Of a stretch of 64,000 bases of DNA, positions 912-60,741 are shown one piece after another. The translations under genes were made by a program, and so were the position numbers. Positions within the stretch are counted from its first letter, which is position 1; each line of letters begins with the position of its first letter. The notes under the pieces are model-generated. The model did no database searches. It was given only the letters and a program-made list of their open reading frames with translations, and was not told the origin of the DNA. Source of the DNA: Haliotis asinina (taxonomy: Eukaryota; Mollusca; Gastropoda; Lepetellida; Haliotidae); the NCBI RefSeq assembly GCF_037392515.1, contig NC_090280.1, forward strand, positions 18,540,001-18,604,000. The letters run 5' to 3'.

Positions 912-1045
912 ATGGAGAAGACATCGCTCTGCGTGCCCCTGGTCACTGAGTTTGCCTTTAAAATACCTCGCATGTCTGCAAATTTCCAGGCATCATATTT
1001 GTCGAGTCAGGCTAGTGTTTCCAGTGGGAGGAGGCCCCATGCTAG
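912..1045 (+). pseudogene. Signal-peptide exon of decayed copy 1
   Basis: The ATG sits where it does in the two intact MEKI-type genes, 42 bases after the TATA box. The product begins 'MEKTSLCVPLVTEFAFKIP', against 'MEKILLCMLMATEWVFAF' in the 30240 gene. The donor is 'CTAG|GTAGTA'. Length 134 breaks the phase-1 rule of the family. Confidence 0.6.
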
Positions 1046-1303
1046 GTAGTATATGACTGAGGTACTCATTCAACAATTTAAGCGCCAGTTAAGAGATCTA
1101 AAACTTATCTCATTCCTTTCAAAGTAATCTTTTTGTATTCTCTACTATTGTGAAAATCAAACTCGAAAGTTCATGCACGAAAACGGTTTAGCAACTTGTT
1201 CGAGGAACTGCGTCTTCATATATTATTGTTTATTGACCTTGATAATAAGGCCATACGTATGGACAAGCTTTCATGAAATGCCGATGCATATTTTCTCTTT
1301 TAG

Positions 1304-1387
1304 AGACATCAGGATCTGTTATTGCCACGATGAATCCGGCTGTATCAAACTTGGCCAAGCGTGTCGAAAAAGACAGGGAAGATGAAT
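1304..1387 (+). pseudogene. Helical exon of decayed copy 1
   Basis: Acceptor 'CTTTTAG|AG' and donor 'GAAT|GTAGGT' bound an 84-base phase-1 exon ending 'KRVEKDREDE'. The equivalent exon in the 30240 gene is 72 bases and ends 'KRINELEKDREDE'. Confidence 0.6.
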
Positions 1388-1389
1388 GT

Positions 1390-5502: not shown

Positions 5503-5512
5503 AATGCTTAAG

Positions 5513-6459: not shown

Positions 6460-6560
6460 TGACCCATCCTCTAGAAGGCACAGACATAGTTTTCTACAGT
6501 TCTACAGGTCTTCATGCCATTGCTTTCTACAAATGCAAGAAGGGATTCCTTAGTTAACTA
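6460..6560 (+). pseudogene. Sushi exon remnant of copy 1
   Basis: The run from 'AGAAGGCACAGAC' to 'TGCAAGAAGGGATTC' aligns with the middle of the sushi exon at 34911-35117 (encoding 'EGTDVLYSSTGLHA...'). The first and last cysteine regions are missing. A 19-base tandem duplication ('TAACGTTGGTGACCCATCC') precedes it. Confidence 0.65.
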
Positions 6561-6734
6561 CCGGACAAAAGTTATCACCAACTTTAATTGGCTCAATAGT
6601 AAACACAGTAGCGTATATGAGATTTCTGACAACTGATGTATTGACAGAAATCATTTTCTGATAATTCGAATGAAAATTCATTGTCATGTCACTTTGCAAT
6701 ATCCCGCAATACACGAAGAAAGAGTCAAGGGGTC

Positions 6735-7606: not shown

Positions 7607-7619
7607 GTTTCCTCGACAG

Positions 7620-7895
7620 TATCTGACTGTTGGGCGGCACATGCTGGAATAGCGCTATATACCGGACACGATCAACAACGGTAACCGGCAAGGTCTGTCA
7701 GCGATGGGATTCTCAGATGCCACAAATCCACGAATATGTAGACGACGATCAGTTCACCATCCACAAACTGTAAAGGATCTGCTAACTACTGCCGTGACCC
7801 GTCTCGTGACGGGTTTTTATCGTGTTACACAACGGATCCACACATACGCTGGGACACGTGTGATGTCCCTAAGTGTGAGATCCATAACCACTGCC
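7620..7895 (+). pseudogene. Kringle exon remnant of copy 1
   Basis: The acceptor 'CTCGACAG|TATCTG' and the start 'SDCWAAHAGIALYTG' match the intact kringle exons. The 'CQRWDSQ' region and the 'RWDTCDVPKCE' end are recognisable, but they lie in different frames because of a one-base loss near 7670 and a loss of about 20 bases in the centre. Confidence 0.7.
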
Positions 7896-16289: not shown

Positions 16290-16960
16290 GGTTGCGTGAA
16301 TCTATTTATTTCACTGAAAACGTAAACTGGTAAGCAAAGAAACTCCACCCTAGGTCAGATTACAAATGATGACATATATCTCATGTCATGAGTTGCTTTA
16401 AAATTGAAATTGTAATGCTTCAGACGTGTAAAAGAAAAGTACAATTAACACTAAAGTATATGTGTTTTTAGACAAGGGATTGGATAATGAAGGGTTTGTA
16501 GTAAATGCAACAAAAATGTCACGCTTTTACATCTGTGTCTGTTTCACACGTTGCAACATGTAGTAAAACAGGTCGGTGTTCAGTATGCACATATTTAGTC
16601 CTCCTCTTTACTAGACACACAGATGTACAGACATGTTATGATAAATTTTAGCAATGGCCAGAACATACTTCAGCGTTGCCCTCTAGATTGGAACCATCGA
16701 CCTTAAACTGTGAAATTGTGTTGAAATGTCAACGACGGTACAAGTGTTCGATAGGTACTATACAGTGGACAGACAAGTGCCAGACAAGTGATAGACAAGT
16801 GGCAGACCAGTGTCATGAGGAGAAGGATACCAAAGACGGCCACGATGATAGCCTACTTCAGTCACACTGAAAGTTCACTTGATGTGGTACTGTTTGGCAG
16901 TTCATTGTACAAGCACTGGGCGTGTAATGCAGCGTGTTAACAAGAGTTACCATCAAGCAT
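16290..16960. other. Intergenic, 5' flank of the 17076 gene
   Basis: No gene is seen. A short direct repeat of 'CAGACAAGTG' (about 16766-16812) lies 260 bases before the start codon. The last 100 bases match the flank of the relic exon at 37490. Confidence 0.4.
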
Positions 16961-16962
16961 AC

Positions 16963-17039
16963 TCGAGCAGAGTATTTTGATTGACAGTCCAGTTATAGAT
17001 ATATAACCACGCTTCACGCCCAAGCGCACAATCACTCGG
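16963..17039 (+). promoter_or_regulatory. Putative promoter of the MVFR-type gene
   Basis: 'GCAGAGTATTTTGATTGACA' is shared with 37501-37520, and 'AGTTATAGATATATAA' at about 16991-17006 offers a TATA-like box 70-75 bases before the chosen ATG. It is unrelated to the CACGTTA/TATAAATA promoter of the MEKI-type genes. In the relic at 37540 the second half of the TATA-like run is altered. Confidence 0.45.
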
Positions 17040-17075
17040 ATGACAGACGGTCTGTGCAGTAAAGGCCCTTTCAAC

Positions 17076-17244
17076 ATGGTGTTCCGACTTTGCCTGTTTG
17101 TAGTCATAATGTTTGCTTGTGGATATGCCAGCAAATCCAGTGACTACTGTCGGGTTCTGGTCAACTACGACACATTTAAGACATCCGTGGACCAATTTCT
17201 CGGTTCCTGGGATGAAACCTGTGAGAACACGGACATACGCAGTG
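17076..17244 (+). CDS. Exon 1: signal peptide and cysteine-bearing N-terminus
   Basis: The donor is 'AGTG|GTGAGT', phase 1. Likely signal cleavage is after 'ACGYA', before 'SKSSDYCRV'. The region after cleavage contains 'DYC' and 'ETCEN' and no recognised domain. Confidence 0.75.
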
Positions 17245-20200
17245 GTGAGTATGAAACTGTTGTTACTTTGTCATCCAGTTAGCAATTTAATTCACGTTGT
17301 GAGTGAGTTTTTGTATAAAGTTTATACATTTTAGGCTAAATAAAAAAAATTGAAATGGTTCTCGAGCATCGGCGCATGACATTTTGTTTCGGGCGTAACA
17401 ATCTCTGATCGTAATTAAACACATAATTTTGACTTGGCCGCGTCCCGATCATCCATTTCTCCACTATAAGAATAAGTGTCTGTAAGAACGAATGTGATCG
17501 AATCTACAAATAATTAGCATGTGCTTCCCAGGATGTGTATCTGCGAGAAAAATAAAATATGTTAATCCCTCGTCCCCTTTTTTTTCTATCAAAGTTTTAA
17601 ATAAGTCTTACCGTCACTTTTGAAAAAAATGTGCGCGAGAAACTTTAATATTTTTATGCAGCCTTATCATGTCAGGTTCTCTATATACCTAATATGGTAT
17701 CTGAAAAGTCGTGTTCATCTTTAATTCGTGAGATCCGAGAATTATTATACATTGAAATTATTTTCTTAGTGACCTTAAGTTCATATACAATATATATGTC
17801 CGTGAGCTTGTGAGCATCTATTTTTGATAACTGCTTAGTTGTTGACTCCGTATCCTGAATCAGTAGGAGTTGTCAGGAGTTTTCTTGGTATTTTGCATAG
17901 TAAATTGTATTTTCAGAAAGCAAAGCAACCTGCCTGACAACTTTGGACAAGCGTATTAATGACCTCGTGAAGAAAGTCGGTACGTAACCTTTTCTCAGAT
18001 AACATTATGATGTTCGGTCCTACTGGTGTAAGGTTGTCACAGTGGTCTAGCTCATAGAGAAGAAGCCTTTTTTTCAGACCGTTAGTCTTGAACTCAACTT
18101 GGGAAGGTGGTGAGGTTTTCGTTATGTTCTCGAAGTAAAAAGTACTTGCAATTGTTCTTGCAAGTGCACAAAGGGGTAGAACATAATCCTCCTGAACTAC
18201 GTCTTGGCGGCATACGTCTTCCAAATTGCGTGATGTCACTGATAGCATTACATCCGAACGTTCTAATGCTATATTGTGACTTGCACCATATCATATTTTG
18301 TAGTGACCCGACCCGTGTAGGTCCGGGTAGAATAAGCCTTCAGCACCCCATTCTTGCCATAAAAGTGATTATGCTTGTCGACTAACGGGTCGGTGGTCAG
18401 GCTCGCTGACTTGGTTGACACATGTCATCGGTTCCCAACTGCACAGATCGATGTTCATGATCGTGATTACTGGTCCAGACTCGAATATTTACAGACCGTC
18501 GCCATATAGCTCGAATATTGCTGAGTGTGCCGCAAAACTAAACTCACTCACTCACCGGTAGTGGCCCAGATTGACTTGCAAATCCACAAATCATATCTAC
18601 TTTTAGCAGATATTTTCAAAGATGAAAGACTGCTTGTTTCAGTTGCCTATAAAAAATCGAGGGTCGATACATCGCCTCGGTCCCATGGACACGGCACTGG
18701 GTAATGCATCTCTGAATCAAATAATACAGACTAACTAACATAGCTCTTGCTTACTAACATCTTCAATCACGAGGGTTGGGGGATGAGGGAATTTTGAGGC
18801 TTACGTCAACAGTGTTTGGTAAACGTACACACAATACTACATGTAATATGAACTGATATACAAAAATCCGTGCAAATGTATAAAAAAAATTCTGTTACAG
18901 TCCAAGGTACACACACCCACACAACGATCTAATAAGTTTGTCCCTATCTGAAGAACACATACACACCTGCACACACGCGCGCGCACGCACACACACACAC
19001 ACACACGTTGTTATCGAAGGCTGTTGAATTGAGGTAAAACAACCAGACAGACAGACAATTCCGTATTAGACTACAGGCGCAATATGCATTAATATTTTAC
19101 ATGAACTTACGTTTGTATTTTCTCAACAATATATAATAATAGGTGTAAATTATTTATAACATCTACGTTTGTTAAAGACAAAACTGTTTGAGATAAAGCG
19201 TGTTTCAAATATTTATCAAGACATTTATTCCCTTTATCTAGGTAACCTTTACAATAAAGTAAAAACTGGAATTTTTTTCATTTAAATTAAGATTAATGGG
19301 GTTTGTTTTGGCTAAAGGGACACAATCTTGAATCATAACGGGTATTCATCTCCCGGCGTCTGAACTTTTGCTAATTCTAAAATTACTACATCTACATTTT
19401 GTCAAACAATTTCTTAAATATAGGGCAATATGTAAACTGAGATACTTTTCAACATTTAGAAGGGACGTGAAGAGTGTATGATTAAAACACCCCAGGATGA
19501 CTTTATGACTGAAAATCAGAATGTTAAACGTTTCATAGATTTAGGTGAACTGTATAGTATTGATGAATTTTCAAAACCCAGAAAGTCGCAAGATGAAAAA
19601 GTAAGTAAGTATGGTCTATTGTTGTTAAGATTATGTAAACAGCTAGATGTGCATATTGTGAATGGTAGAACTCCTGGAGATTTGTGTGGCTCATTTACGT
19701 ATGTTGGACCATCCGGAACAAGTTTGGTTGATTACTTTTGGTGTCAACTGGGTGTTTTGGTAAGGTAATAAACTCGTTTGTACATAGCAGAACAGATTCG
19801 GATCACTTACCCGTTTCTTGTCAGATCTCTTTTGATATTCACCATGCTGCTAGTTGTGAGACAGGTTTGCAGGGTACGTGTGACCAGTACATCTGGTAGA
19901 GATGTTTATATGGAAAACTATAGCAAAATATCTCAGAAAACCTAAACATCGTTTTTACGCTGCATTCATAGATTTTCGGAAGGCTTTTTGATTCAGTTGA
20001 CAGTAACAAACTGCTATATCAGCTTCTCCAACATGGAATTCATGGAAAACTTTACAAAGTCTTAGTAAGCATGTATGAAAATGTTCGTGCTTGTGTTAAC
20101 GTTGGAAACTCTATTACAGGCATGTTTTCCACATCTAGTGGCGTAAGACAAGGCTGCATGCTGAGTCCCTTATTGTTCATATTTTTTTATAAATCAGCTT

Positions 20201-22348
20201 GCTTCTGATCTGCAAAATGACGATTGCAATGGTATCTTTGTCAATAATCCTGTTGAAGTTATTAAGCTACTTTTATTTGCAGACGACATTGTGTTAGTTG
20301 CAGATTCTGTGGTTGACTTGCAGAGGAAGTTGAATGTTTTAGAATTACTTTGTAGTAAATGGGGATTAGTGGTTAATATGGAAAAGTCAAACATTATTGT
20401 ATTTCGTAACGGTGGAATGATTAGAAATGTTGAAAAGTGGTATTATAATGGCATCCAAATGAAAACTGTCACGTATTATAAATATCTAGGTGTAATATTT
20501 TCTTCACGACTGTGTTGGTCAACAGCCTGTGAAACTCTTGCAAATCAAGCATCGAAAACCTGTTTTCCTATCTACCAACTCATGAAAAGTTACCCAGATC
20601 TTTCTTTGAAGGCTATTCTGTCCATATTTGATACAAAAATCGCACCCATTGCATGTTATGGCAGTGAGACTTGGGGGTTTAACTTTAGGGAAAGTATAGA
20701 AAGAGTTCAGAGTAATTTCTTCAAACATTATCTTGGTTTGTCGAAACGATCTTCATCAAATGCAGCTCTTGGCGAGTTAGGACGTTATCATCTATCAGTT
20801 AATTACTTCTGCCGGTGTGTTGGTGTAGATTGATCCATATGGACTCCACACGATACCCCCGTGCTTGTTATAATATGCTTAAAGCCCATGATGAAGCTGG
20901 CAGTGTAAACGGGACTTCTCATGTCAGAATGTTGTTATTTCAAACTGGCTATTCATATGCTTGGATTTTTCAAGAATGTGGAAATGTATGTCATTTTATG
21001 ACTTTGTTTAAACAGACAGGTATAGAGTTAAACATTCGGTGTTGGAATGGGGAAATAGAAGCATCTTCATTCTTGAGAACCTACTCTTCTTATAAAACTG
21101 TCTTTGAACAAGAAATTATCTAAATGCTGATACTGATAGAGATTTGATTAAAACACTTGCAAAGTTTAGATGCATATGATATTGTTAAGAAATTCAAAAC
21201 CTGCGTTCTAACAAATGTACTGATCAGAGTGATTTGTTTTGTGAATGCTTCAATCTAAAAGTTATTGAAGATGAGTTTCATTTCGTACTTGTCTGTCCAT
21301 ATTTTAAGGAAAGTCGAAATAATCTCCTACCAAATATTTTTGGCAATATCCAACAAGAGATAAGTTTATTCAATTGATGTGATGTACAAATAAAAACATT
21401 ATGAAAGGTCTAGCCATTTACCTTAAAAGGAATATGTATAATTGTACTTAATCTCCCACATCAAAATGTACATTTACAGAATTGTATGAATATATGTTCA
21501 GTGAATAGTTTGTATTTGCACTCTGGGCCACGCGGCCTCCAATGCTGAAATAAAGTCTCTCTCTGATTAGAATAATTGATTGAGTCATGATGAGTACCAG
21601 TCTTGTAAAACTATCATAATGTATTAACTTTTAGCAGCAATCGGCCTCACAATGTGTTCTTATATCGATAATCGTAACAGATTCTCCTTATCAAAAGTTG
21701 CCCGTAAATGTCTCCATGTATGCTTACTTTACAGCCAGTCTGACGTCGGAACTGAGTGTAGACTGTGGTTCTCCAACTCCAGTAGAAGGCACGGAAGTCG
21801 TCAACAGTTCAGCACGTCTTCTGGCCAGCTACAAATGCAAGACAGGTTTAGTGAACATCCATCCTGGGGAACAGACAACAAGCTTGTGTCAGAAAGACGG
21901 GAATTGGACGACGGTCAACATGAAGTGTGTCAACCGTAAGGATGCAATCTATATATTTCGATGTTAAAAATGAAATCTTCTGAATTAGTCATGTAAATTT
22001 CGTTTATTTATTCAGTTGGGATGACTCTATTTATTAACTAATTCATGTTTCTTGACAGTATCTGACTGCTCGACGGCAACTGCAGGGAGACAGTTGTACA
22101 CCGGAACTCGATCAACAACCATCACGGGCAAGGTCTGTCAGCGATGGGATTCTCAGTATCCCCACACCCACACCAAAACTAAAGACGTGAAATTCTGGAT
22201 CCCAGGATTCGACACTCCCCAAACTGTCACGGGATCTGCCAACTACTGTCGTGATCCAGACCGTGACGGGTTTTTATGGTGTTACACAAAGAATCGAAAT
22301 TCGCGGTGGGAAAAGTGTAATGTCCCAGAGTGTAACATCCAAGGTTGA
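17076..22348 (+). CDS. Secreted sushi-kringle protein, MVFR type (4 exons)
   Basis: Exons 17076-17244, 17917-17979, 21735-21935 and 22059-22348 have lengths 169, 63, 201 and 290 and join in phase 1, giving a frame of 240 residues. A signal peptide ('MVFRLCLFVVIMFACGYA') is followed by a short region with three cysteines, a helical exon ('LDKRINDLVKKV'), a sushi domain with its four cysteines and Trp, and a kringle with six cysteines. The ATG at 17076 was preferred to the in-frame one at 17040 because it starts the signal peptide and the upstream one is not kept in the 37.5-kb relic. The first exon is unrelated to that of the MEKI-type genes, while the last two exons are clear paralogs. A LINE sits in intron 2. 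The secreted location is inferred; ligand and function are unknown. Confidence 0.8.
17917..17979 (+). CDS. Exon 2: helical segment
   Basis: Acceptor 'TTTTCAG|AA', donor 'GTCG|GTACGT', 63 bases. It encodes 'ESKATCLTTLDKRINDLVKK', a short amphipathic helix, paralogous to the 42-base exons at 33887, 48862 and 56448. Confidence 0.75.
18301..18556 (-). mobile_element. Abalone-type SINE
   Basis: This is a near-complete minus-strand copy, from 'CCCGTGTAGGTCCGGGTAGA' to 'GCCGCAAAACTAAACTCACT'. Candidate imperfect target duplication GTAGTGRCCC lies on both sides. It lies in intron 2 of the 17076 gene. Confidence 0.85.
18643..18700 (+). pseudogene. Relic of the second helical exon in the MVFR-type gene
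   Basis: The intron before it ('TTCAAAGATGAAAG') and the donor 'GGTAATGCAT' match the exon at 3528-3590. The remaining 58 bases are not a multiple of three and the acceptor is degraded, so the exon is probably skipped in this gene. Confidence 0.45.
18962..19006. repeat. (CA)n/(CG)n microsatellite
   Basis: A run of CA with an internal 'CGCGCGCGCA' segment, inside intron 2 of the 17076 gene. Confidence 0.9.
19450..21565 (+). mobile_element. Second LINE family, decayed copy (endonuclease, RT, C-terminus)
   Basis: The first open part (19478-19768) ends 'VGPSGTSLVDYFWC', an endonuclease C-terminal motif. The reverse transcriptase follows with 'GVRQGCMLSPLLF', the catalytic 'LLLFADDIVLVADS' (FADD at 20276-20287) and 'YYKYLGVIFSS', then the family's extra C-terminal region ('ACYGSETWGFNFRESIE'). 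Frameshifts occur near 19990, 20190 and 20820, and part of the RT N-terminus is missing. The 3' end 'GCTGAAATAAAGTCTCTCTC' closes near 21563. It lies in the same orientation as the gene whose intron it occupies. There is no RNase H, so it differs from the 10934-16058 family; the clade is uncertain. Confidence 0.8.
20291..20833 (+). pseudogene. LINE reverse transcriptase, thumb and C-terminal region
   Basis: This is the longest open piece of the 19450-21565 element, beginning just after the FADD box. It covers 'KWGLVVNMEKSNIIVF' (motif D region), 'KYLGVIFSS' (motif E region) and 'CYGSETWGF', which recurs as 'LYGSEIWGFE' in the copy at 51815. Confidence 0.8.
21735..21935 (+). CDS. Exon 3: sushi/CCP domain of the MVFR-type gene
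   Basis: Acceptor 'TTTACAG|CC', donor 'AACC|GTAAGG', 201 bases. Four cysteines stand in 'VDCGSP', 'SYKCK', 'SLCQKDGNW' and 'NMKCV', with the Trp before the last cysteine, which is the sushi pattern. It is two codons shorter than the 207-base paralogs. Confidence 0.9.
22059..22348 (+). CDS. Exon 4: kringle domain of the MVFR-type gene
   Basis: Acceptor 'CTTGACAG|TATCTG', stop TGA at 22346-22348. Six cysteines are present ('SDC', 'KVCQRW', 'NYCRDPD', 'LWCYT', 'EKCNVPEC') in kringle order. The loop 'CRDPDRDGFLWCYT' keeps two aspartates at the positions that bind lysine in plasminogen kringles. Confidence 0.92.
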
Positions 22349-22429: not shown

Positions 22430-22775
22430 ATGCCTAGCCGCTCAGTACCTCAACTTCGGGGTTTCAGCAAAATGGTTTAGATATAAGAGATGTAAATTCA
22501 ATTTTTTTCCATTCAGAAGTGACAAGCTATCATACAACTGGTATTACAGAACGGATCTAAATATATGCTGGGTAAAATGTAATGTCTCTAAGTGTAATAT
22601 TCAGGGTTACGGTTCATTTGATCCTCATTCAGTATGCTTTCGTACTAGTACACAGTTGTGTATTTATTATCACACCAGCTCCATACTCCTGCTCTGGGAT
22701 GTCACCAAAATGGCTTAGATCTGTGACCTGTAAATTCAAGTCTTCTTTTCATATTGAAGGTGATAAACTGTGATG
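22430..22775 (+). repeat. Decayed tandem duplication with kringle-tail relic
   Basis: Two diverged units about 236 bases apart (near 22436 and 22672) share 'CAAAATGG.TTAGAT' and a following 'TGTAAATTCAA' run. Between them, 22539-22612 matches the last 75 bases of the kringle exon ('GGTAAAATGTAATGTCTCTA' against 'GGAAAAGTGTAATGTCCCAG'). Confidence 0.55.
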
Positions 22776-33300: not shown

Positions 33301-35285
33301 TGAAGAACGTGATTCTCGAAATTGCATACAAGCGATGGACAATTTTGATGTAGTGTTAAGATGTGGGCATCACCGCCGACTTGATACACATTCAGGGCAG
33401 TTTGATGGCACACATAACACAGAAGAAAATCTGCGGCAGTACGTCATTTCCATTTTGCACCAATCATTTTTCAGCCGCACAACGCCCGACCTTACACGGC
33501 GAAATTTACAAATGCCATTTTGTGGAACCGCTATGCCACCATATTTAAGCTTCATCGAACAGTTCTGGGATGCTCATGGTCTGTGTCAGCGATCACCTCG
33601 GCAAGAGTCACATAACCTCTACCAGTTGGCACAAACACTACAGAAAGAGTCGGTGAATATTCCGCAGGCCACAATTCGTAACAAGTGATGCCAGGCAGTT
33701 CTGGACTCTCATGGTGGCTATGCACGATACTGAGTACAGAAAATTTCACCTTCAGATCTTATAACCATTAGAGAACAGGTTTAATTGTATAACTACCCAG
33801 GAAAGTAATAGATATGGCTTAGGAATTGCCCCAAGAAAGTAATAGATATGGCTTGTTTAATTGCATTGCAAATTATTCTATTTCAGAAAGCAAAGAGAAG
33901 CTTGTAGATGACCTTGGGATTAAAGTCGGTAAGTACTTGTAAAGTTTTCTCAAATCAAAATTATGTTATTTGTCCATACTACTTTATGGTCGCTGCAGTG
34001 ATATTTTGTTTAGTCACCTTGATTTTAAGGTGGAATGGTATCGTTTAGTTGGACATATACAATGTTTTGTTCTCGCATCAGTTGTGATGCCAGTCTGTAA
34101 AACTGCACACTGATCCGATACCACTCAGCATATCGCAGGAGTATAACGCAAACCAGGAGACCTTCTCCTTTGTGTAAAAACATATTATCGTAGTGTTATC
34201 ACGTTAGATAGTGATTCATAAGGACTTGCAAATGATACAGTCGGAATTAAAGAATAGTATCTCCATTAGAAAATGTTAAAGAGTGTTTTTTCCACATGTA
34301 TATGGAAATAGAAAGTACGGACATCGTTGTTGTTGCAGACAAACTGGCAAATGACAGCAAACACATAGACATTCGTCTCAAGGACATAGAGGCATCCCTA
34401 GGTAATGTATTTGAAAATATGGTTTACATTCTTACCAACATATCTCATTACTACAAGACTCTTAAATACTTTGGGTTGGACGCGTGTTTGAGAGTTTATG
34501 ACAGCTGGGATGTGGGAAAATTGGCCCTTGAGGGTCTGGAGTGGGATGGATGGGGCAAGGGAAAACAGGGAGTAGTTAAGTAAACTTAAAACTTGAAAAT
34601 GCCTCAACACCCCATATTGTCCATGTTAAACATGGGTGAGTAATTCTTGGGAATACCTAAAATACAAGTGTACAAAGTATGTGGTCTTTAACCTACTTTT
34701 GAAACATGCATTTGAAGCAGTAAATCTCTTTTTATTTGTTGTGACGCTAATATTAAAGGCTCTGCCCTGGAGGCTAAAGGATTAATAGTGGTCATATGAG
34801 CAGCAATTGATCTCACACATTGTATGCATATCGATAATCATAACAGATCCTCGTTGTCAAAAGCAGCGCTTACCTTCGTAATGTCTGTACGGAAAACGCA
34901 TACATTACAGCCAAACTGGCGTCTGAGTGGAGTGTAGACTGTGGTCCTCCCACTCCCCCAGAAGGCACAGACGTCCTCTACAGTTCAACAGGTCTTCATG
35001 CCATGGCCAACTACAGATGTAAGAAGGGTTTTCTTGACATCCAGCCTGGTCAACAAATGATGAGCGTGTGTCAGAAAGATGGGCACTGGACCGTGGTCAA
35101 CGTGAAGTGTATCAACAGTAAGGATATAACAAAAAATGAAATCTTCTATAAGTGTTGAAATTGTAAGAACGATATATGCTCATGGTGTGTCGAATTCACT
35201 TGCTCATTCTCTTCGAATAATCACGATTGTAAACTGACACAGTAACTATGGCCGATATATGATATTAACGTGTGATAATAATGGT

Positions 35286-37490: not shown

Positions 37491-37665
37491 CTGTTAGAGA
37501 AGCAGAGTATTTTGATTGACAGTCAAGTTATAGATACTGAACGGGGCTTCACGCCCATACATTCACTCTGATGACAAGCAGTGTGTACAGTTAAAGGCTC
37601 TGTCAACATAGCGCAGTCTTACTTTTTGCGTGTGGATATGCCAATAACTCCAGTGAGTACATTAA
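37490..37665 (+). pseudogene. Relic first exon and promoter of an MVFR-type gene
   Basis: 'GCAGAGTATTTTGATTGACA' and 'GGCTTCACGCCC', then 'AAAGGCTCTGTCAACAT', match 16963-17076 at the promoter and start of the 17076 gene. The start codon region is interrupted by a deletion that removes most of the signal peptide, after which 'GTGTGGATATGCCA' and 'TCCAGTGA' return. No sushi or kringle exon of this copy survives before the shared 3' flank at 39.3-40.3 kb. Confidence 0.75.
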
Positions 37666-37669
37666 GGAG

Positions 37670-45123: not shown

Positions 45124-45413
45124 TTAACCCTGGGAGGAACACTTTGGGACATCACACTTTTCCCAGCGTGAACCTGGATCTGTAGTGTAACACCACAAAA
45201 ATCCGGCATGAGATGGATCACGACAGAAGTTAGCAGATCCTGTGATAGTTTGGGGTATGTCAAGTCCTGGTATGGTGAACTGCGCGTCATTTTTAAATCT
45301 GTGGGTGTGTGGCTTCTGAGAATCCCATCGCTGACAGATCTTACCGCTTATGGTTGTTGATTGATTTCCAGTATAAAACGCTATTCCAGCAGGCGCCGTC
45401 CAGCAGCCAGATA
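45124..45413 (-). CDS. Exon 8: kringle domain of the minus-strand gene
   Basis: Acceptor 'TTTGACAG|TATCTGG', stop TAA at 45126-45124. Cysteines are in 'SGCW', 'KICQRW', 'NFCRDP', 'LWCYT' and 'EKCDVPKC'. The loop reads 'CRDPSHAGFLWCYT', with neither ligand-site aspartate. Confidence 0.92.
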
Positions 45414-45596: not shown

Positions 45597-48500
45597 ACCT
45601 TTATAACCACAAATGTTAATATCAAATATAGTTACCATAGTTACAGTGTCAGTCTGCAATTATTGGACGAGAATGAGCAAGTGAATTCGACACACAATGA
45701 GGATATATCGTGTACTAAAACAATTGCCTCATCAAGGGTAATAGCTAATTGTTATCATTTCAACAGAAGTCCAAGAAGTTATAATTTTGACATTAACTAT
45801 GTTACATCCTTACTGTTGACACACTTCACTTTGACCACGGTCCAGTGCCCATCTTCCTGACACACGCTCATCATCTGTTGACCAGGGTGGGTGTCAAGAA
45901 AACCCTTCTTGCATCTGTAGTTGGCCATGGCATGAAGACCTGTTCTTCTATAGAGGACGTCTGTGCCTTCTGGAGACGTTGGAGCACCACAATGTACCTT
46001 CAGCTCGGACGTCAGGTTGGCTGTAACGTCGTAAACATGATATTGATCAGAAGTGCGTTTAGACCTACATTTAACCGCCTTCAAAATTAACATCTAACCA
46101 AAGTACCAAAAAATATTACTGAATCAAATGATTTTCAAAAGGGATCACATATGTTAATAATACTAATTAATATGGATATACAACAACTCGATTCTGTATG
46201 GACGACACGATATGGGATACACGAGAAGTGACAAGACTTCCTTGCATCTGCTCACCTGGTTTCGGATCGTATATATACATTGGCCGAAACCAGGCCTGTG
46301 AATGCTTTGGACGATGTTTTAGGTCGTGAGCAGAAGTAAATGTTCCTCGAGAATATTTCTGTACAGCTTATTGTTCATATTGCCTTCAACTACACAGAGG
46401 GGCGCTCTACCTAACACAGACTTGCCATCCCACACGTTAAATGTCGGACAGTACCTTGGGCACTGTACTTTGCTGACACAAAAGTTTTTCAGTTTGTTTG
46501 GTCTAGAATTTCAGTGTATTAGGAAACAGCCACACACACCTTTAATCCGAGGAAATCACATTGTCCCTGTTAAAATTTCTATGCAGTTAGCAGCAGTTCA
46601 ACGTTCGTTCCTTTTGTTTAGGTTTCATGATTGGCGATTGCATGCAGCTAAGTTGTAATTGTCTCCTTATAGACAGCCACAGTTCCTCTATCAATCATAT
46701 CCAGCCTTAAGGTTTCTAAATTCCTTTGTTTGTTTTCAGATACAAGAATGCCTAGACGCCTCCTGTCACCGACAGTCAATTTACCTGCACTTCCCTGGTG
46801 CTCAATGACATATCCATTTGCAATATTTTGTAATTGCTTTGATATCATAATTGTGTTGCATAGATGTTGTTAATGCACTCACGAGTCACCATGAACAACA
46901 ATGCTAAACCACATGGTTCATGTGTTGTTGGCGAATATGTTATCGCCAAAGAACGCAGAAACTACATCATGGCCCGACAGGTGTCGAAGCCGCGATTTCT
47001 CCAAACAAACGTAAGTCTGAGTTTTTACTCCAATTGAGAAAAAGCATTTTGCAGAATCAACTGAAATCGATTTTAAACATTGGAGACAATTTGAGTTTGG
47101 TAAATAGAATGCTTAAGTTCATTGGGCTTTTATTTTCATTGGGCTTTTATTTTCAAAATGCATCTGAGTGAAATAGTCATCTGTTTCAAATTGTCAAACT
47201 CGGGACCAGATCTTAAACCCATGGGGTATGTTTGGGACATAAGAGAGATCCTCCATAGCAAAATGTTGATGTATTGGACCAGTCATCCATCAGAATAGAG
47301 CCAAATATTTCGACGCCAAATTACACCCCAATGAGGAGAAGGGAATGGATGATTTTGCAGTAGGCAGGCATTCTTCGGGTATTGTGCTCGGCATTGGTAC
47401 TTGTAGAGGACTTTCTGATATTATATCTTTTGCCGTGATTGCTTGCTTAGATATGCCATTTAAATAGCATTGGAGGGTTCGTGTGTCCAGATGGTAAGTT
47501 CAGCTAAGGTTAACCTGACCCCGACAGATGTCTTTAAGGGTCCGTGGTAACTAGTAAGGAGTTAACACCGTAAACTGTAATTGAAGGATTCATTACCTAG
47601 AGCTGTCTCTATCTTCCTGAGACGAATATCTTTGTTTTTCTTGTCATTCAACAGCTTCTCTGAAACAATAAAATGAACGTAAATGTATGGACGCTAGACT
47701 TTAATAAAACTACTAGGAAAATTGTGTTCTATAATATTGGGAACATCTGTTTAAAGTGGATTCTTCGATTCTGACTATGTCGATTCCATGATTTATTTTT
47801 TATGAATCACTTTCAAATAGGATAAAACAATTTTATACTGTAATGTACACTCACAAAGGCGAATGTATCACGCACTACTGGTGGCACCTATTATGAACCA
47901 ACCCACCAGCTAGCCAGCCGACCGACCGTCCGGCTTTATATCTTGTTTGAAAGAGTCAATGATTCAACTTATGCCTGCTCATAAATATCCTTAAGTACTT
48001 GAGTCCGTGGCATGATAAAATTAGGGTATGAGATAACGTTTTGGTCATACCATGCGTTTACCAAAACCATGACGTAAAATACAGCCTTACTCCCAACTGG
48101 CTTGTAAACGTTTTTAGAGATCGCTATTTTGTCTTACACATACCTTTACATTTTCATAAATACTGAATTAATTTACCTAATCAAACCATGCATTCGTAAA
48201 GGATTCCATATTTTATTTCCATTTACCGAGAAATCTACAAAAAAGCATAAAATTTACCAACTTAAGTACTTAAACATTTTGTACAATTGTTTTGAAGACA
48301 AAAAATATTGTCAACTGCTGAATATCCCGCTTGCTCTTCATTTGTTTTATCCAGAATGTCTCCCGATTAAAGTAGTCGTGTATTAATGATGTAAGTAAAA
48401 ATGTTACTAAATATGGTAGGTTGGGTAATCCCTTTGTAATGATTCATACTATTTATATTAGCGTGTTTACGCCAGTTGACAGACATTGTGTGAAAATACT

Positions 48501-51500
48501 AGTTTTGAGAATATCTTTAAATATTAATTCATAATATGGTATTAATATATCCACTGAATTCTTGAAACACTAAAGTCACATGCTAAAAAGCCAGTTATTT
48601 ACCAAAAACATCTTACCGTGTGGTGGAAATCACAATATGGAATTCCTGCGCCAGATTGGTATCACAACGGATTCGAGAACAAAACTCAACATTGTTAGTG
48701 GCAAACTATGCCACTATAGGTACTCAACCCTGACGTCCGTTGGAATGAAATGGACAGGGAAGAGAACCACTTGGATTCTATCCACTCTTTCATTTCAACG
48801 ACCGCACAGAAATACGAAGAAATAACATTATGGTATTTGAGGAATGTTTCCAGGTACTTACTGACTTTGTTCTCGAGGTCATTGACACGTTTGTCCTTAC
48901 CTCCTGAAAATAGATATGCCATGTAGTAATGCAGGAAATATCCCAACAAGTACTTCCCCTGTGAACTCTATGATTCTATGGTCCCATATGACATGCTTGC
49001 AATAAGAAGACGCAGCTGCACAGCAACGGTTAAGGATCTTCTAAGATCCAAATATCAGAAATGATAATTAGATGCACATGTATATCGTGCAGGAAATATG
49101 CATTATCCTGTATTTTGACCAAATTAATTCCTTTTTAAATGAAATTCTGAACTCTATCCGAAAAGAACCTTTCTAATTTGATAGAGCAAGAATTTAACAT
49201 TTCAAAAAATAAAACATAATAATTGAAATTACCATGTACGTCTATTAGGAAAATTGCCTCTACATGCATTTAAAACAGTCGGGTTTGTTTTTTCTTTCCC
49301 AACATACTACAAACTAATTCAGTAAAAGCTGATTTACACACAAAACAAATATATTTTAGCTGCAATTATCAGTATACACCGAGAAGTGTTTATTCAATAC
49401 AATGCACTCAAATCATCTGATTTATTCCAAAATCTTGTTATACAACAGAATTTGTATTTGGGTAGAAGTGCAATTTAATTGTATACTTTTAGCGTGAGAG
49501 GAATAGTTATGAGAGGTAAAAATTCTGTCTATTCAGCATAATGTTTCATTATCATTATATGTTTTTATCATTATCACAAGTATTGTTGTGACAATTGGAG
49601 CAGGTTTAGTCGATCGTGATTATTTAACGAAACTGAGCAGAAGCCAACCATATCTTATATATGTTACTGTCAAATTTTGAAATCAGTCATTTCGCGAAAG
49701 GAAGAAAAAATCAGTGATTTCATGAATGAATTTAAGCGCCTGTTGCACTTCAGCTTGGCTATGAAACATTTACAGCTAAGTGCGTGTCTGTGTGTTGGTG
49801 TCTACTAGTACTCAACAGAACTTCATGAATATATATTTTGACCTAAAATAGGTTGCATTCTTACTGTTGACACATTTCACGCTGACCATGCTCCATTGCC
49901 CATCATTCTGACAAAAGCTCATCATCTGTTGACCAGGGTGGTTGTTAAAGAAACCCTCCTTGCATTCGTAGTTGGCCATGGCATTAAGACCTGTTGAAGT
50001 GTAGGCAACGTCTGCGCCTTCTGCAGGAGGTGGAGAACCACAATCTACACCCGACTCAAATACGAGACTTGCTGTAATGTAAACATACATAAATACTCTT
50101 CGAAGGTACAATCTGCATTTGACAAAGAGGATTTGTTATGATTGAGGATATGAGCACAATGTGAGACGGATTCCTGATGATATTTATTTTAACCACTTAA
50201 TACAGTAAAAGATTGAACAAGATGAATAGGTGGAGTGGGATTAAATTCCTTCTGGTGAATTCATTGAGCTATGGAAGCATATGAAAACACAACATTTACA
50301 GTTGTTGAAGTAATGTTCAATACAATTTGGTCGAGGAGTTCTGTTATTTTGTCTCTGATACTCTCTACTTACATTATCTTAAACTCCTAGACGGCGCTTT
50401 CAGGTTAAAAAACTAACACAAAATTCAAAGTTAGTTAATTCTAAACATAGGCATTCAAAGGTACGTTAAAAAGCAATGTCTCTCCAGTATTTTGATCTTC
50501 ATAAATGACCGCTCACAAACGAATATAGATAGTACTGTCTGGGTTAATCCCCTACCATTGCTAAATCCCCGGAACCAGATCTCGTAACGTCTTATATCGA
50601 CAAACCATTCCAAACGTCTCTGTCTTTTTAAAATTGCCAGGGTATTAACTCAAGAGCAAGAACATCTTTGTTTTGATATTTGAGTTCACTTGCCATGCGT
50701 CTGTCCTTTCAAACAACTACCAGACACAACTAAGAAAGCATCCATAGGAAAATCGATCACGAGTCTTTGGCGTGACAAGCAAGCACTTTAAGTACTAGGC
50801 TATTCCGTCGTCCACCCAAACGTGGATGCCTGAACAAAACAACTCCTTCCCGATGAAAGGACGATTTCATTAAAAATTCAACTGACAAAACTGTATGAGT
50901 GGGCGTGTCAAGATGTCCTAAATATCACAAGGCAGTATCTAACAGCAATGGTAAACAGCATCGTGCTCGTGCGGTCCGTGATTGTTTCACCTCCAGAGAT
51001 GGAAGCACCACTACCCCTGGAGTTGTGCAGATAGATAAAGTGAGGTTTGGCTGAGTTCCCTTGACGTGGGTCCTAATGTGTTTATACTGGCGGTGCGTTA
51101 CTTTTTCTGTGTTTATATTTGTTGTTCTAGTATAGTTAACAGGATTTTGGTCCATCTTTCTCCCTTCTCCCACCCTCCACCTCTACCACATCGGATATGC
51201 GCAAGTGTTTAAGAGATTTTAAAGATACATTACCTAAGGCTGCCTTCATGGTCCGGTGACGAATATCTTTGCTTCTGTGGTCATTTAACAGACTCTCTGT
51301 AACAAAAAGGATGACAGGACTCTCACGTGCATTCCTTCGTCATTGGAAACATCTCCTTAATGTGAATAATCTTCGTCTATTCCGACTCTATCATTTGCAT
51401 GTCCTTAGAAATTACATGAAAGCTGACAACACTATGATATCATGTATTTACACGAAGGATAAAGTGTCCCGTTCAACTGGTGGCACAGTCAGCTATATGG

Positions 51501-54500: not shown

Positions 54501-57500
54501 CAGGTGAATAGTCCAGATCCTGGTTGTAGAATGAACAGGAAAAAAATGGTCAAGGACACTCACTCGTATCCGTTGCATTATAAGTGCGGGAGGTACAAGG
54601 TGTTTTCCTTGCAGGGCAGATCAATCCCTCGCTGTCCCCGAGATAGCCGCGTGTGACGTTGAGATGATGGTTCATCGTGGACTACGTCCATTACGAAATA
54701 GTTTCCAATTGGTTTTCCGATAATTTATCGGACGTCCACTTAACCCCCGTGAGATGGATGTTGCTGGATACGAAAATTTTATGGAGAGAGATTGTGTCTT
54801 CCACGGTCACACCCCTTCCACCTCCACCCTGCAGCCTGGTGTAGGAATCGACCTTCACCCACACGTAAACGTAGCAAGTGTGGTACTGTTGTTTAGTTCA
54901 CCGGGTTTTGATCCCTTTCACGATTTCGACATTGCTGACTGATGGTTTCCCAAGGTAGACTTGGATGACCAGCGTGGAATTCGCCAACATATTTTCCAGG
55001 ACGTCAACCACGTTGTCAAATTCTGACACCACTTGAAATCCGTTTTGCGTCCCTGGTTCACTTGAGAGCGTTTGGGGTATTTTACGTGAAACTATGTTAA
55101 CGACCATGCTCCGGTTTTACGTCGGGGCGTAAGCCAAGAGCAACGTTGCATTGTTGACGTCTTTGTTTTCCGTGAATATGTACGGAGACCCCAGTGTGAG
55201 GTTGGGAATCAAATCGATCTTAGAGAACACAAACATCCATCGGTTGTTGGTGGTGAAGATAAGCGTGTATGGCTTGTCTCGAGTGACGACATCCTCTCGA
55301 CGTCGTCCAGGTCGCATGCCGCTGAACGCCATGGCTATCGTCCATTCGTCCTCATCGCTGTGGAGGAGGTCGTACTGCGCGTGGCTGTTCGCTCCTCCAA
55401 CGTCGACGACATCGCCTAGGACGCTTAAGCTGTCGGATCTACTGCCGTCGGCGGGAACTTCGATGTGTTTGTAAATGCCGGGTATACAGTTTGCCCTCGA
55501 TGCCGGGTTCATCGAAGCCGCTCCTGTCCTCGATGTGAGAGATCGCCAGGTTGGTGCATTTTCTCGGGTTGGCGCATTTTTTTACCGTTCCTGGCTAGCT
55601 ATTCTCGAAACATTCGTACCCTACGAACTTCTTAAGCCCATACTTAACAAATTGGCCACGATCAAAGTTAAGAATTCTTAGGGCTACGAACGTTTCGAGA
55701 AAAACGGCCCTGGACCCGAAGACTGAGTCATGGTTTGTTTGATAATGGTGGTAGAACCTACACCAAAACGTTGATCTCACAGCAATAAAGAAGTTGTTCA
55801 TCTATATATTGTCATCCTACGTTACTGTACGCAGCAAACCATGGTATGGAACTGAAGAATGTGTGTGATACGGGCTGGCATTACAACTGATTCGGAAGAC
55901 ATCGTTCAGAAATCGAATTGTAACCGCATTATATTGACTAGCCCTTACAAAGTAGTGCTGGGCATTGGCAAAATTTTCATATATTGTGATGCTTTGATGT
56001 ATTGCAATATGTATTCCAAAATATTGTGAAAGTGTAACACATGGTTTAAGGGAAAGAAATTGCTGTCTCCTTTCTTATGAAATAATGCCACTGGCTACTG
56101 GTAGGGTTCAGATGTGACTGTGCAAAAGATCAACTTAAAATGCTTCCAACCTAACGAGTTTGCTTTAAAGTTTAGAACTCGAGACAAAGCATCTGCAGCG
56201 GTGACCGCACTTTTGGTTTGTTTATACCGACAACGAGTTCCCGTATCAATCAATATATTTATTTTTATGATTTGAAAGTGCAATTATATGACCAATAAAC
56301 GTTCTAAAATCTCTTAACCGGTATTATAGACCACCCTGCTACAACGTCGGTAATACTGAGATGCCAATCGACCTTGTCGTCCATTGAGATTTAACAGCTT
56401 GACCATGAAACATAATGGTATACGAAAAACAGTGTGCAAGTACTTACCAACTTTGTTCTCGAGTTCATTAATACGGTGGTCTCTGTTTTCTAAAAACAAA
56501 GAATTTGCCAGTTACCTCCCTAAGAATTATTATTTTTGTCTCTAAAAGTCTATTCTACAGTAACAGTTACGCCTGTTGTCACAATAAATCAGATGGATAT
56601 ATACACATATACATTAACAATACTTCTTATATATGACGGTGGAAAATGAAAATAAGAACTAAAATTGTTTAAACATAACATCATTTTATATTATTGCGTA
56701 GCTTGGAAGCAAAACCAAAATCGTAATCCGCTCTGACACATCAATTATTAAAATAACTGTTGACCTATTTTTAGTGATCGCTTCAGTTAGATCTTTTTTT
56801 TTCAAACAAAACCTTATTGTTAGCTAGGGGTAGCTTTAGATCCTGATCGCCAGCCATCATGATGTGGCATGAATCAGCATAAGGAAGGAATTGTGGTAGC
56901 TTCAAACACCACGTTCCCTGCGTATGACCACACAGTTAGCTGACAACAACCCTCAACAGCAGCCAGATCACCACGAGTGGGTGAATGAGTGAGTGACTGA
57001 GTTGATATTTAACATCACATCGGCAGTATTTCAGCCATATCGTGACGGGAACAAAACACTAAAATGGAATACATGTGTGTTATAAAAACTTGTCCACAAA
57101 GGACAGTAAAACAACTAGAATGTCACAGAAAAGAATGTAAAACTAGTACCTATATACCTAAAACAATTTATCTATAGAGGACAATACAATATAAAACTGT
57201 GCTACAGATTGCAAACAACAAATTCTACCATGAAGTCGATTTCCTGTAAAAACCAATGATTAAATGAGAACTAACAGTTGTTAGATCCTTGATAGTTTTG
57301 ACATTGAAATGCTTATCCCTTGTGATGGAGAATAGATCACCATGAGCTGACAGCTTACAACCATAGCCAGGTCACCATCAGCTGACAACAACTTACAACC
57401 GTGGACAGGTCGCCATCAGCTGACAACTTTCAATCGTAGCCAGTTCACCATCAGCTGACAACAACTTACAACCGTAGACAGGTCACCATCAGCTGACAAC

Positions 57501-60500: not shown

Positions 60501-60741
60501 ACAGCTTGGGTTATCCGGGGCATTCATGATCAGACTGTTCGCCTTGAGCAGGATATCTAGACACGAAAGGTTCGATATAAATATTCAATTGTAACCAGAA
60601 TGTCAGTGATATATCGTTACCTTGCATGAGGCCCGCTGTCCTGGGTAACACACTGGCCTGTCTCGGCAGAGATGGTGAAAATCCTTCAATGACAAACGCC
60701 CATTCAGTGGCCAGCAGCACGCAGAGCAATATCTTCTCCAT
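45124..60741 (-). CDS. Secreted protein with two coil-sushi modules and one kringle (8 exons)
   Basis: Exons in order of translation: 60741-60621 (121), 56489-56448 (42), 51296-51234 (63), 50071-49865 (207), 48903-48862 (42), 47659-47597 (63), 46020-45814 (207), 45413-45124 (290). All joints are phase 1 with GT/AG ends, and the sum is 345 codons including stop. The product is a signal peptide ('MEKILLCVLLATEWAFVI'), helix-helix-sushi, helix-helix-sushi, kringle. The repeated 42-63-207 exon set shows an internal duplication. The first set has no kringle and the second set has no promoter or signal exon, so one gene is the simplest reading; two broken genes is the alternative. Introns contain a 30-unit minisatellite, LINEs and fossil elements. 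The kringle lacks both aspartates of the usual lysine site. Confidence 0.75.
45535..45595 (-). repeat. (TAG)n/(CTA)n microsatellite before kringle exon
   Basis: About 20 uninterrupted trinucleotide units stand about 120 bases before the kringle acceptor on the minus strand. The poly-Thr/poly-Val open frames here are repeat artefacts. Confidence 0.9.
45814..46020 (-). CDS. Exon 7: second sushi domain of the minus-strand gene
   Basis: Acceptor 'GTTACAG|CC', donor 'AACA|GTAAGG', 207 bases. Cysteines are in 'VHCGAP', 'NYRCKKG', 'SVCQEDGHW' and 'KVKCVN'. It is closest to the sushi exon of the 30240 gene. Confidence 0.92.
46310..46860 (-). mobile_element. Tc1-like transposase fragment
   Basis: On the minus strand 'KLTVGDRRRLGILVSENKQR' and 'RGTVAVYKETIT' resemble the second DNA-binding subdomain. 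Broken frames follow that resemble the region around the first catalytic Asp ('VWLFPNTLKF'). It lies in an intron of the minus-strand gene. A short plus-strand piece near 47190-47290 ('GPDLKPMGYVWDIRE') may be another such fragment. Confidence 0.6.
47597..47659 (-). CDS. Exon 6: helical segment, second module
   Basis: Acceptor 'GTTTCAG|AG', donor 'CTAG|GTAATG', 63 bases, encoding 'NKDIRLRKIETAL'. Confidence 0.8.
47665..48860. other. Intron, nothing recognised
   Basis: AT-rich, with no supported frames or repeats. Confidence 0.4.
48862..48903 (-). CDS. Exon 5: helical segment, second module
   Basis: Acceptor 'TTTTCAG|GA', donor 'GTCA|GTAAGT', 42 bases, encoding 'GKDKRVNDLENKV'. Confidence 0.75.
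49865..50071 (-). CDS. Exon 4: first sushi domain of the minus-strand gene
   Basis: Acceptor 'ATTACAG|CA', donor 'AACA|GTAAGA', 207 bases. Cysteines are in 'VDCGSP', 'NYECKEG', 'SFCQNDGQW' and 'SVKCVN'. Confidence 0.9.
50110..51230. other. Intron, nothing recognised
   Basis: No supported frames; no known repeat seen. Confidence 0.35.
51234..51296 (-). CDS. Exon 3: helical segment, first module
   Basis: Acceptor 'GTTACAG|AG', donor 'TTAG|GTAATG', 63 bases, encoding 'SKDIRHRTMKAAL'. Confidence 0.78.
51570..52790 (+). mobile_element. Second LINE family, 5'-truncated copy
   Basis: From the thumb region onward it carries 'LLYGSEIWGFEERKSIE', 'GECGRLN'-like 'AECGRLNIYVDYY', then, after a break near 52025, 52052-52681 with 'GFGYVWYSQDVGDIP' and a zinc-ribbon 'CKMCDCGSKEDEIHFMFEC'. 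The 3' UTR 'CATGGGCCAACAGCC...GATAAAG' corresponds to the end of the 19450 copy. It is inserted antisense in an intron of the minus-strand gene. Confidence 0.8.
53050..55580 (-). mobile_element. Fossil block, possibly Polinton-like (structural part)
   Basis: A GC-richer block stands out from its AT-rich surroundings and carries several short open stretches on the minus strand, the longest about 130 codons (55117-55512). One (53414-53635) has a glycine/valine-rich hydrophobic segment followed by a basic patch, of a kind I associate from memory with Polinton-type elements. There are signs of an internal duplication. It is clearly broken, with perhaps five or more breaks, and looks old. The assignment is tentative; it may instead be another element class. 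Confidence 0.3.
54155..54204. repeat. Poly-T/(GTTT)n tract
   Basis: T runs interrupted by single G residues, inside the fossil block. Confidence 0.85.
55585..55712 (-). mobile_element. Foldback MITE, copy 2
   Basis: The ends 'TTCTCGAAACATTCGTA' (left) and 'TACGAACGTTTCGAGAA' (right) are inverted repeats. The middle matches the MITE at 31841-31953 in reverse. It abuts the fossil block. Confidence 0.75.
55715..56445. other. Intron, nothing recognised
   Basis: AT-rich sequence without supported frames. Confidence 0.4.
56448..56489 (-). CDS. Exon 2: helical segment, first module
   Basis: Acceptor 'TTTTTAG|AA', donor 'GTTG|GTAAGT', 42 bases, encoding 'ENRDHRINELENKV', with hydrophobics spaced as in a coiled coil. 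Confidence 0.8.
56925..57650. repeat. Minisatellite, unit about 35 bases, split by a LINE
   Basis: Unit near 'CAGGTCACCATCAGCTGACA' plus 'ACAACTTACAACCGTAGA', repeated about ten times with length variants at 57334-57650. One or two units lie at 56925-56976, left of the inserted LINE end. Confidence 0.8.
56977..57333 (-). mobile_element. 5'-truncated I/Nimb-like LINE inside a minisatellite
   Basis: (GAGT)n-type tail and 3' UTR ('CATCACATCGGCAGTATTTC', 'AAAGGACAGTAAAACAACTA'), ending in the zinc-ribbon coding part. AGATCACCAYGA lies on both sides (56965-56976, 57334-57345), as a target duplication or as neighbouring repeat units. Confidence 0.8.
57655..58560. other. Intron, nothing recognised apart from a short direct repeat
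   Basis: 'TATGTTTTCGTTCCACCTTT' near 58010 and 'TATGCTTTCGTTCCACCTTC' near 58185 begin a diverged duplication of about 75 bases. No gene. Confidence 0.4.
58573..59990. repeat. 30-unit minisatellite derived from a LINE-target junction
   Basis: Counting the 'GAGTGGG' core (and its 'GAGTGGA' form) gives 30 units. The full unit is 48 bases ('CTTGTGAGTGAGTGGGTTAA' + 'CAATTAACGTCACATCGCCA' + 'ATATCTCA') and a short form of 44 lacks four bases. The unit begins with target sequence (CTTGTGA) and continues with the LINE 3' end. The last unit runs straight into ordinary LINE 3' UTR at 59985. Confidence 0.92.
58580..60384 (-). mobile_element. 5'-truncated I/Nimb-like LINE carrying the expanded array
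   Basis: The 3' UTR at 59985-60384 ('AGACTAGGGACCATGGGGAC', 'GGACTTACGTACCC') belongs to the same family as 10934-16058. The exact 14-base duplication CGAAGCACTTGTGA flanks array plus UTR at 58566-58579 and 60385-60398, so the array lies within one insertion. Confidence 0.85.
60621..60741 (-). CDS. Exon 1: signal peptide of the minus-strand gene
   Basis: ATG at 60741-60739, 41 bases after the TATA box. 'MEKILLCVLLATEWAFVIEG' has a clear hydrophobic core. Donor 'CAAG|GTAACG', phase 1. Confidence 0.85.

Follow-up and report, generated by a model that had tools for sequence, protein, structure and literature searches.

Sushi-kringle genes of Haliotis asinina that share a first exon with neighbouring fibrinogen-related genes

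The closest described counterparts of the genes discussed here are the gastropod variable immunoglobulin and lectin molecules (FREP, CREP and GREP), which, in the account we drew on, carry at least one immunoglobulin superfamily (IgSF) domain and end in a fibrinogen, C-type lectin or galectin domain (PMC10875847). The same source ascribes the diversification of FREPs to gene conversion, duplication and exon shuffling (PMC10875847). We analysed a stretch of 64,000 nucleotides of Haliotis asinina DNA (C1:18540001-18604000, hereafter the window; the genome comprises 1.14 Gb in 159 contigs) that holds part of a cluster of genes for putatively secreted proteins with a coil, one or two sushi domains and a C-terminal kringle. 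Like FREP, CREP and GREP as that source presents them (PMC10875847), these appear to be secreted proteins in which a similar front part stands on different C-terminal recognition domains. In contrast to those families, however, there is no IgSF match in the four sushi-kringle proteins scanned; the front that is shared consists of a promoter region and a short leader with two cysteines, and coil-sushi-kringle forms the other tail.

Other comparisons concern the kringle. As in plasminogen and HGF, it has six cysteines, and the best PDB matches of one of our proteins (K3, below) are plasminogen kringles, but here there is no protease domain in the four proteins scanned, and a single kringle stands C-terminally after coil and sushi. 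Mollusc kringles have been reported with other partners: in the MACPF-kringle protein named in a Mytilus transcriptome, as presented there, the partner is a perforin domain (PMC4581086), while for the limpet protein P-vulgata_14 the partners given are a metallopeptidase, ApeC, CUB and two sushi domains (PMC7333891). We found neither a coil-sushi-kringle family nor the sharing of a fibrinogen-related leader in the open-licence literature, which was judged mostly by titles and abstracts and thus provides weak evidence.

Our reading of the locus, which we hold at a probability of roughly 0.7, is that it encodes a tandem family of secreted, non-enzymatic proteins, some with a front probably derived from fibrinogen-related (FReD) genes, that would be assembled through their coils, be regulated in part together with lectins and probably act in recognition or defence.

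A front shared by two gene families

The FReD first exon is also present in five sushi-kringle copies, three of which, K2, K7 and K8, have the region upstream of it in common with the FReDs as well. The cluster was mapped by tblastn of exon seeds over 264 kb and by genome searches, which score the best candidates only, so that all genome-wide counts are lower bounds. The first-pass annotation had described a cluster within the window with a single exon plan; in fact, the cluster extends past the window, with at least ten kringle copies (K1-K10) in C1:18.547-18.715 Mb (about 168 kb) and FReD genes on both sides, and its first exons are of two different kinds, which we call leaders A and B. Leader A is borne by K2, K5, K7, K8 and K9, and leader B by K1, K3, K4 and K6, as well as by K10, where the assignment rests on position only. 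Another, the sixth leader B, stands in front of K9, and leader B is confined to this cluster (6/6 hits among scored matches).

The sushi-kringle cluster lies inside an array of about 18 FReD genes. Leader A matches at 24 places in C1:18.37-18.71 Mb and at seven remote ones on contig C2, with no further match at E <= 0.01 among 32 scored candidates. By position, 15 of the 24 belong to the plus-strand array before K2, four to three minus-strand FReDs beyond the window, of which one (F6) is broken up, and five to sushi-kringle genes. Fourteen of the 15 plus-strand leaders are followed by a listed fibrinogen match ahead of the next leader, and in the remaining one, F1, fibrinogen-type motifs are seen instead; these exons or motifs were read directly in F1-F6 and assigned by position for the other plus-strand members. 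F4 scores 195 bits to Fibrinogen_C in Pfam. The cluster FReDs agree with K2, K7 and K8 in first exon and upstream block, but, unlike in the sushi-kringle genes, the fibrinogen domain of F4 follows directly after the leader, without coil or sushi.

The extent of the shared front was compared by blastn of 1.5 kb on either side of the leader-A start, with the leader-B copies left out. Between F1-F5 and K2 or K7, the alignment ends exactly at +175 in 10/10 comparisons, a position that marks the end of exon 1 (+168/+169) together with its donor site; the F4-K2 alignment, for instance, shows 73.5% identity over 499 columns up to this point. Against K8, the alignment ends at +175 in three of five comparisons and at +145 in the other two, and against K9 it ends at +174 in all five and covers chiefly exon 1. 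Upstream of the start, the match to FReDs extends over 253-415 bases in K2, K7 and K8 and over only 0-8 bases in the main piece of K9, for which small extra upstream pieces exist, while in the decayed K5 it is limited to exon 1. When F1-F5 are compared among themselves, the first block continues to between +215 and +1499 (10/10 pairs), and among K2, K7, K8 and K9 it continues to between +191 and +383 (6/6 pairs), with the pairs involving K2 stopping earliest (+191 to +205). F6, which is split, gives two matching pieces. Exon 1 is 69-88% identical between the families, and the cysteine motifs DYC and ETC are present in 9/9 leaders (K2, K7-K9, F1-F5). From the contrasts between these blocks, we conclude that what the families have in common is the upstream region plus leader and, within what was seen, nothing further downstream.

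Three observations bear on the direction of the transfer. The seven remote relatives of leader A (33-47% alike) lie in a second fibrinogen array at C2:80.46-80.50 Mb, where the one that was read, L029, has a first exon ending in phase 1 followed by fibrinogen exons; no kringle match lies on C2 among those listed genome-wide. The leader A of K9 is preceded, on the same strand, by a B-type 5′ end, the remains of an older front that comprise a B-type upstream region, leader B (with the start codon now ACG) and coil exon c1, which align with K1, K3, K6 and K10. Finally, sushi (44-48%) and kringle (54-57%) matches mark a second sushi-kringle locus at C1:45.06-45.11 Mb, where a local search also gave coil-like matches of the c2 and c3 types (best E 2.9e-4), and where leader A has no match among the scored candidates. 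Together, these observations suggest that the sushi-kringle body is older than its leader A and that leader A comes from the FReDs. It is therefore most likely that the sushi-kringle genes acquired this front from FReD genes. They would first have had leader B, and some copies would then have gained a FReD block of about 0.4-0.6 kb comprising the promoter region, signal peptide, two-cysteine segment and exon-1 donor.

K7 appears to record a second exchange. In exon 1, K7 shows 84-88% identity with FReDs and 70-77% with K2, K8 and K9, whereas its intron 1 is 69-71% identical to K8 and K9 and 43-49%, which is background, to FReDs. In trees of exon 1 and of upstream region plus exon 1, K7 groups with FReDs, and in the intron-1 tree it groups with K8 and K9, each with an ultrafast bootstrap (UFBoot) value of 100. 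Sites with fixed differences, counted as FReD-like, K-like or neither, give 11/1/1 for exon 1, 12/4/3 for the upstream region and 3/10/1 for the intron. K2, in which the start of the intron is at background (45-48%), was left out of the intron tree and intron sites, K9 (51-59%) out of the upstream tree and sites, and F6 out of all. What fits best is that the front of K7 was later exchanged once more through conversion from a FReD, ending near the exon-1 donor, about where homology ends.

A history without any swap, in which one ancestral leader-A gene gave rise to both families and the C-terminal parts were replaced once, would account for the similar plan and phase of exon 1 and for the common upstream block. 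The different histories of exon 1 and intron 1 in K7 disfavour a single ancestral leader-A gene, however, and leader B occurs on the same sushi-kringle bodies, while the second sushi-kringle locus lacks a leader-A match, all of which makes such a history improbable. The reverse transfer, from sushi-kringle genes to FReDs, could explain why leader A occurs on both families where they lie interleaved, but it is very improbable given the remote leader-A relatives in a fibrinogen array on another contig with no listed kringle match, the presence of leader A on about 18 FReDs versus five sushi-kringle copies, and the other leader (B) of the sushi-kringle family, whose remains precede leader A in K9.

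If the front was acquired from FReDs, the locus would be a natural case in which the front end of one protein family has been placed on another. That immune gene families exchange front ends is for the most part inferred by comparing domain charts of different species. Here, one cluster would hold the donor array, the acceptor copies, a later exchange (K7) and the remains of a replaced front (K9), with an outgroup array giving the direction.

Gene models and exon plan

Gene models were built from homology and splice consensus, and some exon boundaries, including those of K4 and K6, were adjusted by hand, so that the AG and GT sites are partly built in; independent support comes from the frame, which stays open across every exon join. 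The features of the window are as follows, in window coordinates.

912..1031, plus strand: K1 (decayed), leader B first exon (tblastn to leader B, E 1.8e-7)
1327..1386, plus strand: K1 (decayed), coil exon (tblastn 52% to K3 coil, E 0.01)
6468..6563, plus strand: K1 (decayed), sushi remnant with in-frame stop
7619..7876, plus strand: K1 (decayed), kringle exon with stops
16792..17075, plus strand: K2, 5′ flank that aligns with FReD genes (-284 to -1; to -317 with F2)
17076..17244, plus strand: K2, exon 1, FReD-type leader A (signal peptide and two-cysteine segment)
17917..17979, plus strand: K2, coil exon, 63 nt
21735..21935, plus strand: K2, sushi exon, 201 nt
22059..22348, plus strand: K2, kringle exon with stop, 290 nt
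22521..22607, plus strand: kringle 3′-end remnant just past K2 (tblastn 48%, E 1.3e-5)
30240..30369, plus strand: K3, exon 1, leader B
30557..30628, plus strand: K3, coil exon c1, 72 nt
33887..33928, plus strand: K3, coil exon c2, 42 nt
34339..34401, plus strand: K3, coil exon c3, 63 nt
34911..35117, plus strand: K3, sushi exon, 207 nt
35811..36103, plus strand: K3, kringle exon with stop, 293 nt
37595..37666, plus strand: decayed leader A fragment (tblastn 54%, E 3.4e-4; blastn to K2)
60621..60741, minus strand: K4, exon 1, leader B
56448..56489, minus strand: K4, coil exon c2 of the first cassette, 42 nt
51234..51296, minus strand: K4, coil exon c3 of the first cassette, 63 nt
49865..50071, minus strand: K4, sushi exon of the first cassette, 207 nt
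48862..48903, minus strand: K4, coil exon c2 of the second cassette, 42 nt
47597..47659, minus strand: K4, coil exon c3 of the second cassette, 63 nt
45814..46020, minus strand: K4, sushi exon of the second cassette, 207 nt
45124..45413, minus strand: K4, kringle exon with stop, 290 nt

It had been claimed that every placed intron is in phase 1 and that exon lengths are kept, and both statements hold. All 15 introns placed in the window (K2, K3 and K4) are in phase 1 with AG and GT, as are the 15 in four models outside it (K6, K7, K8 and K9), and the shared plan, in nucleotides, is 169/63/201/290 in K2, 130/72/42/63/207/293 in K3 and 121/42/63/207/42/63/207/290 in K4. The earlier count was three intact and two decayed genes; in our models, the window contains the intact single-sushi genes K2 (240 amino acids; leader A, one coil exon, sushi and kringle) and K3 (268 amino acids; leader B, three coil exons, sushi and kringle), the intact eight-exon K4, the decayed K1 (912-7876), with stops in sushi and kringle, and fragments. 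Outside it, K5 has an in-frame stop in the kringle and a frame-shifted leader, and the sushi exon of K10 is frame-shifted, so that K1, K5 and K10 are the decayed kringle copies. The start of K7 is an in-frame ATG upstream of the usual leader-A start, which reads ATA in this gene. A stop codon directly follows the kringle in K2, K3, K4, K7, K8 and K9, while the frame of K6 is open and continues past the end of the model.

The minus-strand pieces at 45124-60741 are best read as a single intact gene of 344 amino acids, K4, in which leader B is followed by coil, coil and sushi twice and by one kringle. They could also be two broken genes side by side, one without a kringle and the other without a leader, and it is true that the other copies have one sushi each and that the two sushi exons of K4 are only 77.3% identical. 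All eight exons are open, however, AG/GT and phase 1 are preserved in each of the seven introns, and tblastn of exon seeds found no leader or kringle match between the cassettes, which makes two broken genes unlikely. With only 77.3% identity between its sushi exons, the doubling in K4 would not be recent. The first intron of this gene contains a 48-bp tandem array of 30 copies (58571-59986).

The suggestion that phase-1 modules can be duplicated or swapped without loss of frame is borne out on both counts, by the doubled coil-coil-sushi cassette of K4 and by the FReD leader on sushi-kringle genes. A weaker case of duplication is seen at the sister sushi-kringle locus (L030/L031, C1:45050001-45061500), where several repeated coil-like matches, known from matches and not from splice sites, may represent longer stalks. 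A candidate first exon at 45050023 (donor at 130, phase 1) is like leader B only in its length and phase, and its homology was not counted.

The cluster has a head-on layout in C1:18.37-18.72 Mb, with the plus-strand FReDs and K1-K3 facing K4-K10 and the three minus-strand FReDs, an arrangement that could favour conversion. The kringle exons of K3 (35811-36103) and K6 (C1:18636190-18636488), which lie on opposite strands, are 95.7% identical, versus 88.4% for their sushi exons and about 73% for their 5′ regions, and a recent conversion of the kringle exon is possible. Genome-wide, there are at least 84 kringle matches (on C12, C16, C8, C9 and others); C16:2.748-2.806 Mb holds another kringle cluster, with 24 kringle exon matches packed densely on the two strands.

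Domains and probable function

Four sushi-kringle proteins (K2, K3, K4 and K7) and the FReD protein F4 were scanned with Pfam. The domains named in the first-pass annotation were recovered, although to different degrees. Kringle (PF00051) scores 61.9-66.5 bits in 4/4 against a cut-off of 34.3, and its six cysteine columns are invariant in 7/7 intact copies. Sushi (PF00084) passes its cut-off of 20.7 bits in two of the four, K4 (35.2 over two copies) and K7 (20.8), falling just under in K3 (20.3) and clearly under in K2 (14.4). A profile of eight sushi exons nevertheless finds complement sushi domains in PDB (best E 8.9e-10), which makes the sushi call sound, and four cysteines are invariant in 8/8. 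For the coil, the best heptad register was matched by 0-2 of 500 shuffles in 8/8 segments, in a simple, home-made test that is not a standard coil predictor. The leaders resemble signal peptides, which suggests secretion. There was no Pfam match to IgSF, protease (trypsin-like domains included) or lectin domains in the four sushi-kringle proteins, nor to IgSF in F4, although the latter has fibrinogen. Several rows below the Pfam cut-off were discarded as apparently driven by the coil or by chance. AlphaFold2 gave poor models of the sushi exons (predicted local distance difference test, pLDDT, 61.7 from eight sequences) and of the kringle exons (52.2 from seven), and Foldseek with the former returned nothing at E <= 0.001, a result that was not used as evidence.

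Ratios of nonsynonymous to synonymous substitution (dN/dS, Nei-Gojobori) are below 1 in all pairs: 0.22-0.69 for the kringle (21/21), 0.21-0.96 for the sushi (28/28) and 0.12-0.69 for leader A (36/36). This indicates constraint and thus genes in use now or until lately. Since positive selection is not seen in any pair, it is the variety of residues, not the rates, that speaks for diversification of the pocket rim. Using kringle residue numbering and lysine-type pocket columns that we presume to be correct, the pocket floor (W62, Y64, R71 and W72) is invariant in 7/7 intact copies, and seven rim columns have a mean of 4.00 residue types versus 1.77 elsewhere, a value equalled by 0 of 100000 random sets. 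K35, D55 and D57 of the lysine site occur together only in K2 among the seven.

These features suggest how the proteins might work. The coil would join chains into oligomers, helped in A-type proteins by the two-cysteine segment shared with FReDs; the sushi would serve as a spacer, and the kringle would be the head that binds ligands, its lysine-type pocket having a constant floor and a variable rim. The shared FReD promoter region would put A-type proteins under lectin regulation, and the role would most likely be the recognition of microbes or damaged surfaces. The earlier suggestion of a role in recognition or defence is strengthened by the presence, on five copies, of the same first exon as in the surrounding FReDs, and we consider it probable, by analogy with those genes.

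Secreted tandem families are common in mucus, shell, adhesive and reproductive fluids. The sushi-kringle proteins might likewise serve such secretions rather than immunity, and a limpet adhesive candidate does combine a kringle and two sushi domains with a metallopeptidase (PMC7333891). As described in that source, however, the limpet protein is different, a multidomain metallopeptidase with ApeC, CUB and lectin-like domains (PMC7333891), and the presence of a FReD first exon on five copies, three of which also have the upstream block, suggests regulation together with lectins. A secretory role outside immunity thus seems doubtful to us, and recognition or defence remains the preferred reading.

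A bolder and quite tentative proposal is that the locus works as a combinatorial recognition cluster, in which an exchangeable 5′ cassette (promoter, signal peptide and two-cysteine assembly segment) passes between lectins and sushi-kringle genes, so that chains whose binding heads are wholly unlike would be made in the same cells and form mixed oligomers through the shared N-terminus. Our main reading in turn predicts that leader-A sushi-kringle genes are expressed like fibrinogen lectins and leader-B ones are not, and that lectin chains might be partners of A-type chains.

Several points weigh against our overall explanation. The exon joints rest on homology and splice consensus. For K2, intron 1 stops matching the other K genes 16-30 bases past +175, so that the donor contrast is weak for this gene and rests mainly on K7, K8 and K9. 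As K-gene and FReD introns show no relationship beyond the donor, the position of the original capture junction cannot be pinpointed. The upstream region of K9 resembles FReDs poorly (51-59% in a forced alignment), and the B-type 5′ end before its leader could be the stump of a separate, deleted gene. In K7, the upstream region also matches K2 in parts, and four fixed-difference sites there favour the K genes. As to direction, the C2 relatives are only 33-47% alike, with one of the seven read. The rim columns of the kringle were picked with the alignment in view, and when all 11 presumed pocket columns are taken, 435 of 100000 random sets do as well; both acidic residues of the lysine site are kept in only one of seven kringles. 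Finally, the structure models are too poor to add support, and the defence role is argued from neighbouring genes only.

The window also contains elements apart from the cluster. A search with Rfam at gathering thresholds gave no match. An open reading frame (ORF) at 62136-62630 on the plus strand matches Peptidase_C5, an adenovirus-type protease, at 22.8 bits (Pfam cut-off 21.3), a type of protease that also occurs in Polinton/Maverick-like elements. The remains of a non-long-terminal-repeat (non-LTR) retrotransposon occupy 11526-15495 on the minus strand, with RNase H (41.9 bits) and endonuclease (54.8 bits) ORFs and another ORF in which zinc-knuckle-like motifs are discernible by eye, with no Pfam match. 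Two further retroelement fragments lie on the plus strand, one at 20291-20833, with a weak reverse transcriptase match (16.4 bits, below cut-off), and the other, recognised by eye only, at 52052-52681.

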